DNA from: a virus
Virus record (IMG/VR): IMGVR_UViG_3300032271_000398
Coordinates: 1-23,208 of that record
DNA: 23,208 bases
Reading direction: 5' to 3' (one strand)
Below are positions 6,758-23,208 of the stretch, in pieces. Position 1 is the first letter of the stretch. Each line of letters begins with the position of its first letter. The notes beneath the pieces are model-generated. The model did not search any database and was not told where the DNA came from. It saw nothing but the letters and a program-made list of their open reading frames with translations. The position numbers were made by a program, and so were the translations under genes.

Positions 6758-7777
6758 ATGGACGATAACTCACAGGATGCTTCGTCGGCATCCCTTGAAA
6801 CTAATGAAGTAACCAATGTGGATTCTTACGATTCCACAGGGGTTGAGGACGCTAATACTTCACAGGCCACGGACACGTCTCCCGTGGACGAAACGCAGGT
6901 CGCTAAAGAGCCTAAATCTCTGTTGGAAGCGGTGAAAGCCGCAACCGATAGGGACGAAAAAGCTGGGGAATCGACTGACCCGACGCAGAAAAACGCCGTC
7001 TCTGAAACGGAGTCCGCCGAAACCAAAAGCCCCACGGACGAGGCCAAGGCAAAAGCAGACGAAGCCAAAGACGAGAAAGTTCCTTTCCATAAACACCCCC
7101 GCTGGCAGGAGATGATTCGGGAGCGCGATTCCTATAAGGATGAAGCGACCCAATTTCGTCAAATCACGGCGTTCATGTCCAAAAACCAGTTGACTTCGCA
7201 AGAAGTTGCACAGGGTTTTGAGATCATGTCTGCCATGAAAAACGACCCCCTTCACGCCCGCGAGATGTTGTCCCAATACACAAGGGCTCTGGACGAGTAT
7301 GCCGGGGTAATCCTTCCTCAAGACCTTTCTAAAAAGGTTGACGAGGGGGCGATTGACCAGCAGGCCGCCCAAGAGCTTGCGAGAACCCGAAACGAAGCGT
7401 TGGCCAACCGCGCTAGGTATGAACAAACCGTTCAAGCCCAGCAAGCGCAATACCAGCAGCTTTCGCAACAGGCAATTCACAGTGCTGTAACAGGGTGGGA
7501 AGATACAATCCGAAATCGCGACGTTGATTATGCGGCCAAGCAAAATCTAGTTCTTGACCGGGCTAGGGCATACCTTCTCCAAGGTCGCCCGCAGTCTCCA
7601 CAAGAGGCTCTGGCAATCGTGGAAAAGGCGTACGCAGACGTGAACGACACCCTGAAGGGTTTCGCCCCACGAAAGCAGCCCATCCGAACAGCAACTAGCA
7701 CAAATTCGTCCACCAACAGTCAGCCCGTGGCTAGGAGCCTCCAAGAGGCAATCCGAATTGCGGCTGGCGCAAACTAA
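6758..7777 (+). CDS. Capsid scaffolding protein, 339 aa
   Basis: The protein sits between portal and major capsid genes and has scaffold architecture. The first about 105 residues are acidic, low-complexity and Ser/Thr/Asp/Glu-rich. Next come 'VPFHKHPRWQEMIRERD', recurrent in podovirus scaffolds, and then a long Gln/Ala-rich helical, coiled-coil-prone region (about 150-300). A short C-terminal helix ('SLQEAIRIAAGAN') could contact capsid protein. It would template procapsid assembly and then leave. There is no predicted membrane segment or enzyme motif. The A/C-rich leader (AAAACACACAAC) before the ATG replaces an SD site. Confidence 0.82.
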   Translation: MDDNSQDASSASLETNEVTNVDSYDSTGVEDANTSQATDTSPVDETQVAKEPKSLLEAVKAATDRDEKAGESTDPTQKNAVSETESAETKSPTDEAKAKADEAKDEKVPFHKHPRWQEMIRERDSYKDEATQFRQITAFMSKNQLTSQEVAQGFEIMSAMKNDPLHAREMLSQYTRALDEYAGVILPQDLSKKVDEGAIDQQAAQELARTRNEALANRARYEQTVQAQQAQYQQLSQQAIHSAVTGWEDTIRNRDVDYAAKQNLVLDRARAYLLQGRPQSPQEALAIVEKAYADVNDTLKGFAPRKQPIRTATSTNSSTNSQPVARSLQEAIRIAAGAN

Positions 7778-12890: not shown

Positions 12891-13562
12891 ATGTGCTTTG
12901 GCGGCGGCGGCGGCGGCGGACAATCAAATCTGAATGCGGCAAACAACGCCGCTGCACAGGCCAATTTGCAGTTGGCACAACAGCAACGTCAGGATGAAAT
13001 TGCCCGCCAGAACAACATCAATACGGGGATTGGCAACATAAACAATACGTTTGGCCAGTTTGATAACAATTTCTACAACAAGCTCGGGCAGAATTACTTG
13101 TCGTATTACCAGCCCCAGTTGGATCAGCAATACGGACAGACGCAGCAAAACGACTTGTTTCAGCTTGCCCGTCAGGGAATTGTCAACAGTTCTGGTGCCG
13201 CTAAAGTTTACGGCGATCTAGCCCGCGACGCTGGCAATCAAAACATAGCCCTTCAAAGCGGGGCTAACAATTATATGCAACAGGCTCGCGGAGATGTTGA
13301 GAACCAGCGGAATGCGTTGGTTAATCAAGCGACTGCAACGGCTAATCCTACTGCGGCGGCGAACGCAGCCACAAATGCCGTGGGCGCATTGCAGATGATT
13401 CAGCCTGCGGGTGGGTATTCGCCTCTTGGCGGCCTGTTTAACACTTTTGCCGGCGCCGCCTCCAATGGGTTGCAAAATTACGCTTACGGCAACCAAGGTG
13501 GTCTTCTAGGCCAGATATTCCGTCCGTCTGGTGGCGGCAATTCGTCAACTGTAATCCGTTAA
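12891..13562 (+). CDS. Internal/ejection protein, MCFGGG type, 223 aa (paralogue 1)
   Basis: The N-terminus is Met-Cys-Phe followed by a poly-Gly run encoded by repeated GGC triplets from 12900. Podovirus internal virion proteins often start MCxxGG. The rest is Asn/Gln/Ala-rich and helical, with 'SYYQPQLDQQYGQTQQNDLF', 'QLARQGIVNSSGAA', 'DVENQRNAL', 'ATANPTAAANAATNAVGAL' and 'YSPLGGLFNTF'. The same blocks recur in the next gene, showing tandem paralogy. Low hydrophobicity and Gln/Asn richness suggest an ejected channel protein. No catalytic motif is seen. The gene lies 5 bases after the gp13-like gene, with no SD. Confidence 0.7.
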   Translation: MCFGGGGGGGQSNLNAANNAAAQANLQLAQQQRQDEIARQNNINTGIGNINNTFGQFDNNFYNKLGQNYLSYYQPQLDQQYGQTQQNDLFQLARQGIVNSSGAAKVYGDLARDAGNQNIALQSGANNYMQQARGDVENQRNALVNQATATANPTAAANAATNAVGALQMIQPAGGYSPLGGLFNTFAGAASNGLQNYAYGNQGGLLGQIFRPSGGGNSSTVIR

Positions 13563-13563
13563 T

Positions 13564-14457
13564 ATGGCCTTAATCCCCGGAAATACGGCTTCTTCAGCCA
13601 CGCTTCCGTGGGGAAGTGCGCCTGTGCAATTACAAACTGGGTTGCCTTCAGAGTTGCTTCCGCAAGCAAAAGCGGATCAATCCTCCCTAAATAATTACAA
13701 TTCGCTAATTTCTTCAATACAAAACAACCCTGCTGCTTGGGCAAACCAATACGATGTTCTTGGAAATGCTACAGGGAAAAAAATTCCGATTTATTCAAGG
13801 AGTCAAAATAATGCAAGTTCCCTATATCAAAATTACATAAATAACGCTAATTCAGACCTTTCACGATTAAATACTGAGGGAAAAAACTATAATCAATCTG
13901 TTTACAACATAGATTCCCCGTTTTCGCAAACCTTTACCCCGCAGTATTTTGATACTCGGCTCGGAAGCTATTTAAGCAATTATACCCCTCAACTTAACAG
14001 CCAGTATAATCAGCTTCAAAAAAATTCGTATTATCAGCTTGCTAGACAGGGCCTTTACGGGTCGCCTACGGCTTCTGAAGTTGCCAATAGAAACCAAGTT
14101 CAGTATGCCACGCAGCAAAATAACCTGAATTCTTTGGGCAACGATTACGTCAATGGCTTAAAATCGGACGTTCTAAACTCCAGAAACGCAATCGCTCCTT
14201 CCAGTGCTGCGTCAGCAAACCCAACACAGGCATCTAAAGACGCCACCGCAGCGATTGGCAATTTGACCCAGCAGCAGTCTAACCCGACGTTTTCGCCGCT
14301 TGGCAACTTGTTTACCCTATTCTCAAATGCCCAAGGTAATTCTGGAAACAACGGAACGTTTTTCCAAAATAACGCAACCCCGTACACAAACCCGGTGACA
14401 AGTCAGATTTTTAAGCAAAATGCTGGTGGTCAAGCTGGAAAAGTTGTAACAGGATAA
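13564..14457 (+). CDS. Internal/ejection protein, paralogue 2, 297 aa
   Basis: It begins 1 base after the stop of its neighbour. Aligned by eye, residues about 135-265 match the 223-aa paralogue: 'YLSNYTPQLNSQYNQLQKNS' then 'YYQLARQGLYGS', 'DVLNSRNAI', 'ASANPTQASKDATAAIGNL', 'FSPLGNLFTLF'. Over a 42-residue stretch about half the positions are identical. It lacks the MCFGGG start and has an extra N-terminal region of about 100 residues rich in Asn/Ser/Tyr. The DNA is visibly more AT-rich than the genes on either side, suggesting separate acquisition of one copy. It is probably a virion protein ejected with the DNA; there is no enzymatic motif. Confidence 0.7.
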   Translation: MALIPGNTASSATLPWGSAPVQLQTGLPSELLPQAKADQSSLNNYNSLISSIQNNPAAWANQYDVLGNATGKKIPIYSRSQNNASSLYQNYINNANSDLSRLNTEGKNYNQSVYNIDSPFSQTFTPQYFDTRLGSYLSNYTPQLNSQYNQLQKNSYYQLARQGLYGSPTASEVANRNQVQYATQQNNLNSLGNDYVNGLKSDVLNSRNAIAPSSAASANPTQASKDATAAIGNLTQQQSNPTFSPLGNLFTLFSNAQGNSGNNGTFFQNNATPYTNPVTSQIFKQNAGGQAGKVVTG

Positions 14458-19858: not shown

Positions 19859-19967
19859 TTTCTTCGATCCCACGGTTTCAGGATCCTAGAATCTTGTTGA
19901 CCAACACGGCCAAACAGGACAATAACGAAACCCCTAACCCTAACCCTAACCTCAACCAAACAACATC
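19859..19967 (+). promoter_or_regulatory. Leader region with telomere-like C-tracts before the decoration gene
   Basis: This is a 109-base non-coding gap. C-runs at 19931-19934, 19938-19940, 19944-19946 and 19950-19951 are each separated by TAA, making a CCCTAA array; the minus strand has the corresponding quadruplex-prone GGGTTA array. An A/C-rich stretch leads into the ATG at 19968. A TTGACC at 19895-19900 lacks a convincing -10. The isolation of the following gene and its terminator suggests a separate transcript, but no clear promoter was found. Confidence 0.45.
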
Positions 19968-20834
19968 ATGTCGTTCAAAATCATCACAGGAACTTTGTCG
20001 GCTGACGTAGCCACTTCTGGCACGTTCACCGTTTCCTACCCTACAGGCACTAACGCTGGTCACTATGCCGAGTCTGTCAATCATCAGTTCGTCGTCAACC
20101 AGAACCTCTACAGCTACCCCGCAGGTTTCAGCCTGACCTTCGGTTCCAGCAACATCACCGTTACCAATAACGGAACTGGCACTTGGAGCAGCGGTTCAAG
20201 CTACACGCTTCAAACCGAGCTTATCGGAGTTACCCAGTACACCGATGTGGATTCCGGCTTCCAGCCCGCCAACACGACCCGCCCGATCGTGCTTGAGACG
20301 GTCCTCGGTACGCCTGCCGCAGCTTCCAGCACCTATCTGGCCGCTTCGCAGTCGGTCGCCGCTGCCGGAGCCGCAACCCTGTCCGCCACCAGCCTTGACG
20401 TTCCTCGTAACGTGGTTGCCGCTTGGACGACCAGCGCCAAGATCACCGTCAAGGGAACCGACGTTTATGGCGTTGCCCTGAGCGAATCGATGGCTTCCGC
20501 TGGAACTTCCTTCACCGGGAAAAAGGCATTCAAGACCATCGTCAGCATCACTTCGGATACCGCGATTACTGGCTTTACGGCTGGTACGGGTAGCGTCCTC
20601 GGTCTTCCGTTCTACCTCCCCGCCGCAGGCTCCGTCCTCGGTGAAATCGTTAGCAATTCCAAGGCTGGTACGGCTGGTACGTTCGTGGCTGGTGTTTCTG
20701 GCTCCGTTGCTACTACCACCACGGGTGACGTTCGCGGAACCTACGCCCCTAACGGTGGCGTGAGCGGAACTGACAGCTACATCATCATCGCCGCTTGCCC
20801 TGACGCCGGGTTCAAGGGTGTAACCCAAGCCTAA
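19968..20834 (+). CDS. Putative head decoration / structural beta-rich protein, 288 aa
   Basis: It is Thr/Ser/Gly/Ala/Val-rich with very few charged residues, and consistent with an all-beta surface protein. Segments such as 'SLDVPRNVVAAWTTSAKITVKGTDVYGVALSE', 'KKAFKTIVSITSDTAIT' and 'GSVLGLPFYLP' resemble capsid decoration or head-fibre proteins I have seen in podoviruses. Codons are strongly C-ending, like the major capsid gene and unlike most neighbours. It also has its own leader and a strong terminator just after it, so an abundant virion protein is likely. It has no signal peptide. The exact role (decoration or minor tail) is uncertain. Confidence 0.62.
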   Translation: MSFKIITGTLSADVATSGTFTVSYPTGTNAGHYAESVNHQFVVNQNLYSYPAGFSLTFGSSNITVTNNGTGTWSSGSSYTLQTELIGVTQYTDVDSGFQPANTTRPIVLETVLGTPAAASSTYLAASQSVAAAGAATLSATSLDVPRNVVAAWTTSAKITVKGTDVYGVALSESMASAGTSFTGKKAFKTIVSITSDTAITGFTAGTGSVLGLPFYLPAAGSVLGEIVSNSKAGTAGTFVAGVSGSVATTTTGDVRGTYAPNGGVSGTDSYIIIAACPDAGFKGVTQA

Positions 20835-20865: not shown

Positions 20866-20896
20866 CCCCTCTGGCAACAATGTCAGAGGGGTTTTT
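20866..20896 (+). terminator. Strong Rho-independent terminator at the end of the virion gene cluster
   Basis: CCCCTCTGGCA (20866-20876) pairs with TGTCAGAGGGG (20881-20891), an 11-bp stem with one G-T pair and a four-base loop ACAA. It is followed by TTTTT (20892-20896). It lies 32 bases after the stop of the decoration-type gene. Confidence 0.92.
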
Positions 20897-21286: not shown

Positions 21287-21324
21287 CGTTCATGGTAGCG
21301 TGAACGCTACATTTATCATGAACG
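21287..21324. repeat. Nested inverted repeat at the GNAT gene 3' end
   Basis: CGTTCATG (21287-21294) pairs with CATGAACG (21317-21324). Inside, GTAGCGT (21295-21301) pairs with ACGCTAC (21304-21310) around a two-base loop, leaving a six-base bulge ATTTAT. It covers the stop codon of the leftward GNAT gene. It has no U-tract, so it may protect or mark the mRNA end rather than terminate. Confidence 0.8.
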
Positions 21325-21759
21325 AACAAGGTCGCGGTAGAAGTGCAGCGACCCCTTCCCGCCCCACACTCCCCTATACAACTTGAACCCGCAACCGATC
21401 AAACTATTGGCAGACGCAAGGTTCCAGTTTTTGACATACGAGACAACCTGCCGCAGACGTAACCGCTTCGCATAGGCCACCCGTGCCCGGATCAACTTCT
21501 TCTGAATCCCCTGTCCCCGGTAATCTTTCGCCACGCCGCAGCGCGTCAGGGCGACAAGTCCCTCGTTACACTTTTCTCGGCAAGGGCGCATCCCGGCAAA
21601 CGCCACAGGTTTAACGCCGTCCCAGACAACCCACCAATAACAGCCGTCGCTAGTTTCGACCGCGCCGTCTGTGGGGAAACATCGACGATCAAGTTCCAGA
21701 ACAATCTTTTCGATGTCTGGGTGCAGATTGTCTGGTGTCGCTTCGAGCTTTAATTTCAC
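21316..21759 (-). CDS. GNAT-family N-acetyltransferase, 147 aa
   Basis: The core motif A is clear: 'VALTRCGVAKDYRGQGIQKKLIRARVAYAKR' contains the acetyl-CoA pyrophosphate loop R-G-Q-G-I (about 85-92). It is followed by 'VVSYVKNWNLASANSLIGCGFKLYRG', the usual GNAT C-terminal N-x-x-S-A-N-S-L-x-x-x-G-F signature. The substrate is unknown; it could modify a host protein, a peptide or an antibiotic-like amine. The start is GTG at 21759, inside the upstream HNH frame (71-base overlap, different frame), so the two are probably co-transcribed leftward. It is an accessory gene on the opposite strand from all virion genes. Confidence 0.83.
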   Translation of the reverse strand: MKLKLEATPDNLHPDIEKIVLELDRRCFPTDGAVETSDGCYWWVVWDGVKPVAFAGMRPCREKCNEGLVALTRCGVAKDYRGQGIQKKLIRARVAYAKRLRLRQVVSYVKNWNLASANSLIGCGFKLYRGVWGGKGSLHFYRDLVRS

Positions 21760-22165
21760 GGGTAATGGAGATCAATCCGCCGTGGAGTTTATGGTGGCAA
21801 TTCGCGCAGACAAGCACACACTTTTCTGCTTCTTTCCGAAGGGATTCGTAGCTTTTGCCAGACAAGTTGCTCAATCCGAATGATTTTTTGGACGGGTCGA
21901 TATGGTGAAAATGTAAAGCTGGGGAACACTCGCTGAACCCGCAAAATTCACATTTGCCGCCCCATTCTTCCTTTAACCTCGCCAACGACCCTTTAGCCCT
22001 CATGCTTGTGCGGCGATCATGTCGAGCCTTAAAGCTTGGATCCACATGATAACTGACGGTGGTACCCCTGCATCCCAACAAAGCAGCGATTTCGTAATTT
22101 GATTTGCCTTCTTTTTTAAGATCCAAGCACCTCTGTTTCAGGGTCACGGGGCGATAGACGACCAT
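21689..22165 (-). CDS. HNH endonuclease with N-terminal helix-turn-helix, 158 aa
   Basis: An N-terminal HTH-like segment ('KSNYEIAALLGCRGTTVSYHV', about 21-41) precedes a zinc-stabilised HNH domain. It has Cys72-x2-Cys75, the His-rich strand 'LHFHHIDP' (His85, His87, His88), and Cys110-x2-Cys113 with 'CHHKLH' (His114, His115, His118). This is the layout of free-standing phage HNH nucleases, many of which are homing endonucleases. HNH proteins next to terminases can also aid packaging, but this one is far from TerL and on the opposite strand. It starts at ATG 22163-22165 and overlaps the GNAT gene. The target site is unknown. Confidence 0.85.
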   Translation of the reverse strand: MVVYRPVTLKQRCLDLKKEGKSNYEIAALLGCRGTTVSYHVDPSFKARHDRRTSMRAKGSLARLKEEWGGKCEFCGFSECSPALHFHHIDPSKKSFGLSNLSGKSYESLRKEAEKCVLVCANCHHKLHGGLISITREIKARSDTRQSAPRHRKDCSGT

Positions 22166-22231
22166 ACCCCTGTAGGTTGCGCAAGCTAAAAGTGTTGCTT
22201 TTTGTCGGGAACCGACCTACACATTGCCGGG
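22166..22231. promoter_or_regulatory. Divergent control region between HNH and Dps-like genes
   Basis: This short region between leftward and rightward genes should hold both promoters. TGTAGGT (22171-22177) and ACCTACA (22215-22221) form a 7-bp inverted repeat 37 bases apart. TTGCGCAA (22177-22184) is a perfect palindrome, and GTCGG-GAA-CCGAC (22204-22216) is a small hairpin. No convincing -35/-10 pair was seen. Confidence 0.4.
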
Positions 22232-22690
22232 ATGCACAACCTCGCCGCCATTTTCCGCTTCCTGCAATTTTTTTCGCACGCCGCGCACAACATGACGAAT
22301 GGCTGCACCTTCTTTGCAGACCACAAATTTCTTCAAAAGCTGTATGGCCAATACGAAGAGGCGTTCGATGCTACCGTGGAGCGGCTTATCGGGCTGGGGG
22401 AAATCAAGACCGCCGAAGAACGGTTGGAAATCGACGCCAAGGCCGCTTCCATTCTAGCCAAAGCGGACACTGAGGATCTTGAATGCGCCGAAGATTGGTT
22501 TGAGGTTCTTCAGGACATGGAAGTGGAACTTTGCAAAGCCATCGAAAAGCTGGCCAAAGGCAAAATCAGTCAAGGTACGCTCAATCTGATCGCCCAGTTT
22601 GCAGACGACTCCGAAGTCCGGCAGTATCGTATCGGGCAAAGGTTGAAAATGGCGCCCGCCGAGAAAGCTGAACCCGAACGGGCTTACTGA
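22232..22690 (+). CDS. Dps-like ferritin-superfamily protein, 152 aa
   Basis: The helical N-terminal half carries 'FFSHAAHNMTNGCTFFADHKFLQKLYGQYEEAFDATVERLIGLG'. Counting from the ATG at 22232, His19, His31, Asp46 and Glu50 have spacing 12-15-4. This equals E. coli Dps ferroxidase ligands His51, His63, Asp78 and Glu82. The Asp67 equivalent is Gln35, so iron oxidation may be altered. Dps proteins assemble into 12-mer shells that oxidise iron with peroxide and can bind DNA. The frame opens at TTG 22202 (10 residues more), but I prefer the ATG. The stop overlaps the tail-fibre start as TGATG. Such a gene is unusual in a small phage. Confidence 0.75.
   Translation: MHNLAAIFRFLQFFSHAAHNMTNGCTFFADHKFLQKLYGQYEEAFDATVERLIGLGEIKTAEERLEIDAKAASILAKADTEDLECAEDWFEVLQDMEVELCKAIEKLAKGKISQGTLNLIAQFADDSEVRQYRIGQRLKMAPAEKAEPERAY
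22673..22682. promoter_or_regulatory. CCCGAACGGG palindrome just before the tail-fibre start
   Basis: This is the fourth exact copy of the palindrome, seven bases upstream of the ATG at 22690 and inside the end of the Dps-like gene. A bound protein here could affect tail-fibre expression. It may instead be a chance product of coding sequence (Pro-Glu-Arg). Confidence 0.35.
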
Positions 22691-23208
22691 TGAGCGCGGT
22701 TCCTACCCCCTACACTAGGCAGGCGAATTTTGTTTCCGACGCTGGGAACAACCCGAGCGGGTCGGCTTCACCCGTAAAACTGGACGCTGAATTCAACGCC
22801 GTACAGACAGCCATTTCTACGACGCAATCCCGGCTGGCGCAGATCCAGCGGGATGACGGTGGCTTGCTCAATGGCATCGTGGATCGGAATGCCTTGGCTT
22901 CGAACATGGTGTTTTCCGGGGCTGACATTCAGCTTGGGTCTGTAACCGGGTATAATCTGGCGTCTAAAACGGTCACGGCAAACAATATCGCAGACGGTAC
23001 GATTGACCCGACGAAACTCACTTCTGGATTCTCGCTGCCTTCCTCGGCGATTCCCGATGGCTCAATCAACGACGCCAAGGTTTCCTCGCTTTCTACCAGC
23101 AAAATTACGGGGCTAGATGCGGCTTTGCTCGGAAAACAGCCCGCAGGAAGCTACGCCGCATCCTCGCACACGCATTCCCTGTCTCAAATCACGCAGTCGT
23201 CTGCCTCC
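22690..23208 (+). CDS. Tail fibre protein, N-terminal part (3' end beyond window end)
   Basis: The ATG overlaps the preceding stop (TGATG). The first about 60 residues match the podovirus fibre attachment domain: 'NFVSDAGNNPSGSASPVKLDAEFNAVQTAI', then 'LAQIQRDDGGLLNGIVDRNAL'; the I-Q-R-D-D-G block is diagnostic. This part binds the tail nozzle. The following repeats (ADGTIDPTKL, PDGSINDAKV) are the stalk, matching the style of the fragment at 1-1050. The 519 bases to the window end are exactly 173 codons, so the frame continues into base 1 if the molecule is circular. The combined protein would be about 522 residues. A CCCGAGCGGG palindrome lies inside at 22752-22761. Confidence 0.9.
   Translation, partial: MSAVPTPYTRQANFVSDAGNNPSGSASPVKLDAEFNAVQTAISTTQSRLAQIQRDDGGLLNGIVDRNALASNMVFSGADIQLGSVTGYNLASKTVTANNIADGTIDPTKLTSGFSLPSSAIPDGSINDAKVSSLSTSKITGLDAALLGKQPAGSYAASSHTHSLSQITQSSAS
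22752..22761. promoter_or_regulatory. CCCGAGCGGG palindrome within the tail-fibre 5' coding region
   Basis: This is the fifth exact copy of the palindrome, inside codons for Asn-Pro-Ser-Gly of the fibre attachment domain. Being coding, it may be coincidental. It lies 79 bases from the copy upstream of the fibre start. Confidence 0.3.

Follow-up and report, generated by a model that had tools for sequence, protein, structure and literature searches.

The window analysed here, the whole 23,208-nucleotide stretch of IMG/VR virus record IMGVR_UViG_3300032271_000398, carries directly ahead of a tail-fibre gene an open reading frame that an earlier note, made from the letters alone, had read as a phage-encoded Dps-like ferritin. 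The locus raises the question of whether the product is indeed a Dps and, if so, what a phage might gain by making it together with its fibre. The frame is uninterrupted from the ATG at 22232 to a TGA stop at 22688-22690 (Table 1), and the start codon is backed by homologues, the majority of which share the same first residue. The best profile match was to PHROG 3636 (phage Dps; E=1.3e-8, profile positions 13-140 of 149), and phmmer matched solved Dps/NAP chains with E values down to 1.2e-5. The Pfam Ferritin profile PF00210 scored just below its gathering cut-off (22.0 bits against 24.5; E=1.6e-4), so the ferritin relation rests on the fold and the PHROG match. A weak match to PF19174 (DUF5856) also fell below its cut-off (19.6 bits against 34.6; E=0.002).

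Table 1. Features of the window around the Dps gene
Feature	Position	Strand	Remark
Dps-type mini-ferritin CDS	22232..22690	+	152 aa, ATG start, quartet H19/H31/D46/E50
TGATG, Dps stop and fibre start sharing one base	22688..22692	+	identical junction in G005
Tail-fibre gene, N-terminal 173 aa, truncated by contig end	22690..23208	+	46% identical to 506-aa G005 fibre
HNH-Dps intergenic region (divergent genes), 66 bp	22166..22231		strongly conserved with G005
HNH endonuclease gene, conserved neighbour	21689..22165	-	55% identical in G005
GNAT acetyltransferase gene, conserved neighbour	21316..21759	-	same cassette in G005
Inverted repeat then T-run, after late gene 19968-20834	20866..20896	+	putative terminator

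The expectation of a four-helix ferritin bundle was borne out when the monomer was modelled with AlphaFold2 from the window protein together with 23 viral homologues, 24 sequences in all (mean pLDDT 93.8, pTM 0.86). Predicted helices at residues 2-21, 27-54, 61-77, 86-109 and 114-139 correspond to A, B, BC, C and D and are followed by a low-confidence tail, giving the Dps arrangement of a four-helix bundle with a short BC-loop helix and no fifth (E) helix. In a Foldseek search of the PDB, Dps structures filled the top of the list, mostly at TM scores of 0.70-0.76, and the BFVD matches included proteins of phages under the name 'Dps DNA-binding ferritin-like'. The spacing claimed for the ferroxidase quartet was exact (H19-H31, 12; H31-D46, 15; D46-E50, 4) and is identical to that of the E. 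coli Dps quartet, H51/H63/D78/E82. H31 lies 15 and 19 residues from D46 and E50 on one unbroken helix (27-54), a separation that, given the geometry of a helix, would make a site within a single subunit impossible and would leave the inter-subunit arrangement of Dps as the one fit. The position of E. coli Asp67 is occupied by Gln35 (H31+4) rather than by an acidic residue, as the earlier note had stated, but its implication that a lone ligand had been lost did not hold. Of 51 subfamily sequences, 49 carry Gly here, so Gln35 does not mark the loss of an otherwise kept ligand, and since Gln also occupies the aligned position of 5lbh, a solved Dps-type chain, an acidic residue at this place was not taken as defining for Dps. 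The Trp that usually follows the first His is missing from the window protein and this, together with Gln (Gly in the subfamily) at the Asp67 position, suggests that iron affinity may differ.

Relatives of the protein were divergent. A tblastn search of GenBank phages with the window Dps gave nothing below E=0.01, and a single-sequence scan of viral sequences found no homologue; degenerate DNA patterns of the ferroxidase motif did recover a subfamily, the closest member of which is 54% identical to the window protein. A match in Sphingomonas phage PAU was dropped, being on the strand opposite to gp89. Because hits from motif patterns are circular for the motif residues, conservation was counted instead on a separate alignment-based scan, which used patterns from residues 26-33 and from the C-terminal DDSE.RQY stretch and returned 50 viral loci; its seed alignment was drawn from motif-selected sequences, leaving a residual bias. 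Among 25 viral representatives, each less than 85% identical to the others, R9, H16, H19, G24, Y38, D46, E50 and Y132 were invariant, none of these eight being demanded by the residue 26-33 pattern from which most of the set came. H31 was also invariant but lay within that pattern; it was kept in the three sequences found solely through the C-terminal pattern. Taken with the PHROG and PDB-chain matches and the confident Dps fold, the invariant residues in the 50 viral loci indicate that the quartet is more than a chance arrangement, and positions 22232-22690 are confirmed to encode a Dps-type mini-ferritin. Comparison with the Dps gene of a sister phage (see below) gave a dN of 0.38 with dS saturated, consistent with purifying selection. 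The alignment-based scan of genome contigs found no cellular relative. A stricter pattern returned four short MAG contigs from cellular genomes, at least one of which (L312) bears phage virion genes, and fitted at least 52 fetched viral loci; as the viral set was motif-selected, these counts indicate only roughly that the subfamily is enriched in viruses.

The suggestion that the protein condenses host or phage DNA was not favoured by its composition. The window Dps is acidic (pI 4.95, net charge -9; homologue median pI 5.4) and lacks the basic N- or C-terminal tail of DNA-binding, E. coli-type Dps, the first 20 residues carrying a net charge of +1 and the last 15 of 0, and the C-terminal tail of the sister-phage protein is strongly acidic. 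The low pI and missing basic tail make DNA condensation unlikely and point to iron chemistry rather than DNA binding. Compared with bacterial Dps (E. coli 1dps/7aqs; NAP-type 5lbh and 1ji4), the window protein shares the four-helix bundle with BC helix and the quartet spacing and is similar in length, but is only 17-22% identical and differs in its Asp67 position, absent Trp, acidity and lack of a basic N-terminal tail.

The earlier note knew of no established role for such a gene in phages of this size. That statement was not supported, as the window represents part of a genome of some 45 kb (see below) and phage-encoded Dps is not new: the genes are present in GenBank in Streptomyces phages and E. 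coli jumbo phages. The PHROG 3636 genes of Streptomyces phage Karimac (gp34) and its relatives share the fold family of the window Dps but sit in phages of 120-135 kb, and that of Karimac lies near tRNA, HNH and thyX genes with no adjoining fibre gene, unlike that of the window. Members of DUF5856/PHROG 858 (E. coli phage 121Q gp518 and relatives) have in common with it the core AAHN...CxF..xH...D...E, belong to jumbo phages and are about 27% identical to it. The available parts of two papers report Dps in 'Gratiaviridae' and 36 other gut phage genomes (PMC8008677) and in Lactobacillus phages (PMC6669764), each proposing a role in oxidative stress; these are other phage groups, and fibre coupling is not mentioned in those parts. 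Ferritins are also encoded by freshwater phages (PMC6802176). The window gene therefore joins an established class, and what is added here is a divergent branch of phage Dps with an intact ferroxidase quartet and conserved coupling to a fibre gene. Phage Dps has so far mostly been noted as an isolated stress gene; an intact-site, mainly viral subfamily, found in register with a fibre gene and recurring beside head and tail genes, turns this into a testable question of whether an iron cage is deployed or carried by certain phages as they assemble, and whether it protects the virion or aids entry.

The coupling to the fibre gene was upheld by comparison with a sister contig of 44.7 kb, IMGVR_UViG_3300042363_000536 (G005, also L305), which is 93% identical to the window in TerL, 83% in the adaptor, 76% in the portal and 54% in Dps. 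Its gene order is lysozyme, GNAT(-), HNH(-), Dps, fibre, and the one-base TGATG overlap that had been pointed out in the window is the same there. No Shine-Dalgarno sequence lies directly 5' of the fibre ATG in the window or in G005, so the fibre is likely to be translated by re-initiation after Dps. Upstream, the 66-bp region between the HNH and Dps genes is conserved, and a terminator-like inverted repeat, which was missing from the output of a simple terminator scan, stands between the late genes and the Dps-fibre unit; together these suggest that the pair has its own promoter, and the 66-bp region is the probable promoter/operator, although a scan of it for consensus sigma-70 sites found none.

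G005 also bears on the extent of the window. It has fibre regions in two places, ahead of TerL and past Dps, with replication genes in between, and the N-terminal domain of the window fibre recurs in a second G005 fibre gene, upstream of TerL. Both window ends (1-1050 and 22690-23208) fall in fibre-like genes, which by this comparison probably derive from different fibre genes. A circular 23-kb genome broken within one fibre gene was rejected on account of the two fibre regions, which make a fragment of a temperate-type phage genome of about 45 kb the better reading of the window. The G005 contig carries an integrase and a Cro/C1-type HTH (repressor) gene, and its Dps cassette stands at the end of the late genes, adjoining the integrase. 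No Dps was found in more distant relatives of the window phage, so the gene behaves as an accessory cassette.

Elsewhere in the subfamily, the Dps gene of L059 is flanked by those for a portal and a ClpP-type head protease, the Dps genes of L277, L284, L189 and L147 adjoin fibre-like genes, and that of L312 shares an operon with genes for a virion protein and an SU10-type adaptor; the remaining placements include accessory regions. As neighbours were taken from plain ORF calls and a number of the long ones had no family match, these are given as examples and not as an enrichment statistic. In other phages, Dps domains matching PHROG 3636 lie in one frame with a head maturation protease (L035:1-1851(-), L068:2828-4744(-) and L095:726-2024(+)) or are fused to portal/head-protease-like segments (L047:6307-8955(-)), arrangements suggestive of Dps delivery into the procapsid. 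BFVD lists Dps-fold proteins under the name prohead protease, indicating that such fusions are already in databases; a literature search found no paper on Dps-head protease fusions. A 'DNA-binding protein' of SU10 in BFVD is weakly Dps-like, and its gene was not located in the part of SU10 examined.

Beyond the fold, ligand conservation, purifying selection and conserved fibre coupling demonstrated above, the reading we consider probable is that the gene supplies a Dps cage that oxidises iron, is produced alongside the fibre during lytic growth and keeps Fenton damage in check; the narrower claim, that a Dps-fold protein binds iron at the quartet, is very likely correct. The product would be a catalytically competent mini-ferritin of a phage-enriched subfamily, assembling as a hollow shell of twelve subunits. 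Its ferroxidase sites would lie at the two-fold interfaces, where one subunit would contribute H19 and H31 and the other D46 and E50. Translation together with the tail fibre makes lytic growth the most likely phase of its production. The cage would oxidise Fe(II) with H2O2 (or O2) and store Fe(III), so that phage DNA and virion proteins would suffer less Fenton damage inside the infected host.

A purely intracellular antioxidant does not, however, explain the recurrent placement beside virion genes. It is on this placement that the idea of a virion component draws, according to which the cage or its subunits would be in the particle, as head cargo or beside the fibre, guarding packaged DNA or presenting iron to receptors of the host (the 'Ferrojan horse'). 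Co-translation with the fibre gene, kept in G005, the portal, protease, fibre and adaptor neighbours and the protease fusions all fit it, as does the ferritin-like protein seen by mass spectrometry in Vi01-like virions, the gene of which is near a tail gene; for that protein in phage Sajous1 (gp217) an iron-tail link has been proposed (PMC10892097). The parallel is one of description, the ferritin assignment of gp217 being by Phyre2 only, and gp217 was detected in virions whereas the window Dps is known here from its gene alone. Moreover, Vi01-like phages showed no TonB or FeoB dependence (PMC10892097), the argument for the window protein is one of gene context, other subfamily members occupy accessory regions, and more distant relatives of the phage do without the gene. 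We therefore regard a virion role as unlikely, and slightly more doubtful still its extension to the whole phage-enriched branch, as virion cargo or an attached iron cage forming a counterpart of the ferritin-like cargo of encapsulins.

The absence from more distant relatives would suit a lysogenic-conversion gene (moron), expressed from the prophage and raising the iron and peroxide tolerance of the host, and the integrase, the repressor-type gene, the position of the cassette and the conserved region upstream of Dps itself agree with this. However, the gene is coupled by its overlap to a fibre, of no use to a lysogen, and many of the homologue-bearing phages had no lysogeny gene in the stretches fetched, leaving the explanation improbable. 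The same overlap might instead suggest that the four-helix fold serves as a structural or chaperone aid in fibre assembly, its iron chemistry lost. A C-terminal extension ending in RAY, common to the window and G005 proteins and missing from most other members, would fit such a role, but the RAY codons lie within the fibre leader, so that nucleotide constraint could explain them. Many homologues have no adjoining fibre gene, and the ferroxidase residues, not needed for assembly, are invariant; an assembly role is thus very improbable, and the iron-oxidising cage of lytic growth is retained as the preferred reading.

Several further features of the two contigs were observed. In G005, TGTAGG-N6/7-TCTACA palindromes (1367, 2343 and 7690-7728) flank the GNAT-HNH cassette, one of them just 5' of Dps, and related CCTACA/TGTAGG repeats sit in the repressor region, a possible shared operator. 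A tRNA-end-like sequence near G005 position 1250 gave no tRNA gene by ARAGORN. At 19968-20834 the window carries, in the place taken by a phage lysozyme in G005, a gene for a 288-aa protein of unknown function; in its N-terminal part this protein is similar to a domain encoded by the gene directly past the capsid gene in Rhizobium phage RHph_N65. Three telomere-like CCCTAA repeats stand in tandem at about 19930-19957, between two late genes. The adjacent genes at 12891-13562 and 13564-14457 both match one same protein in relatives and appear to have arisen when a virion gene was duplicated in tandem.
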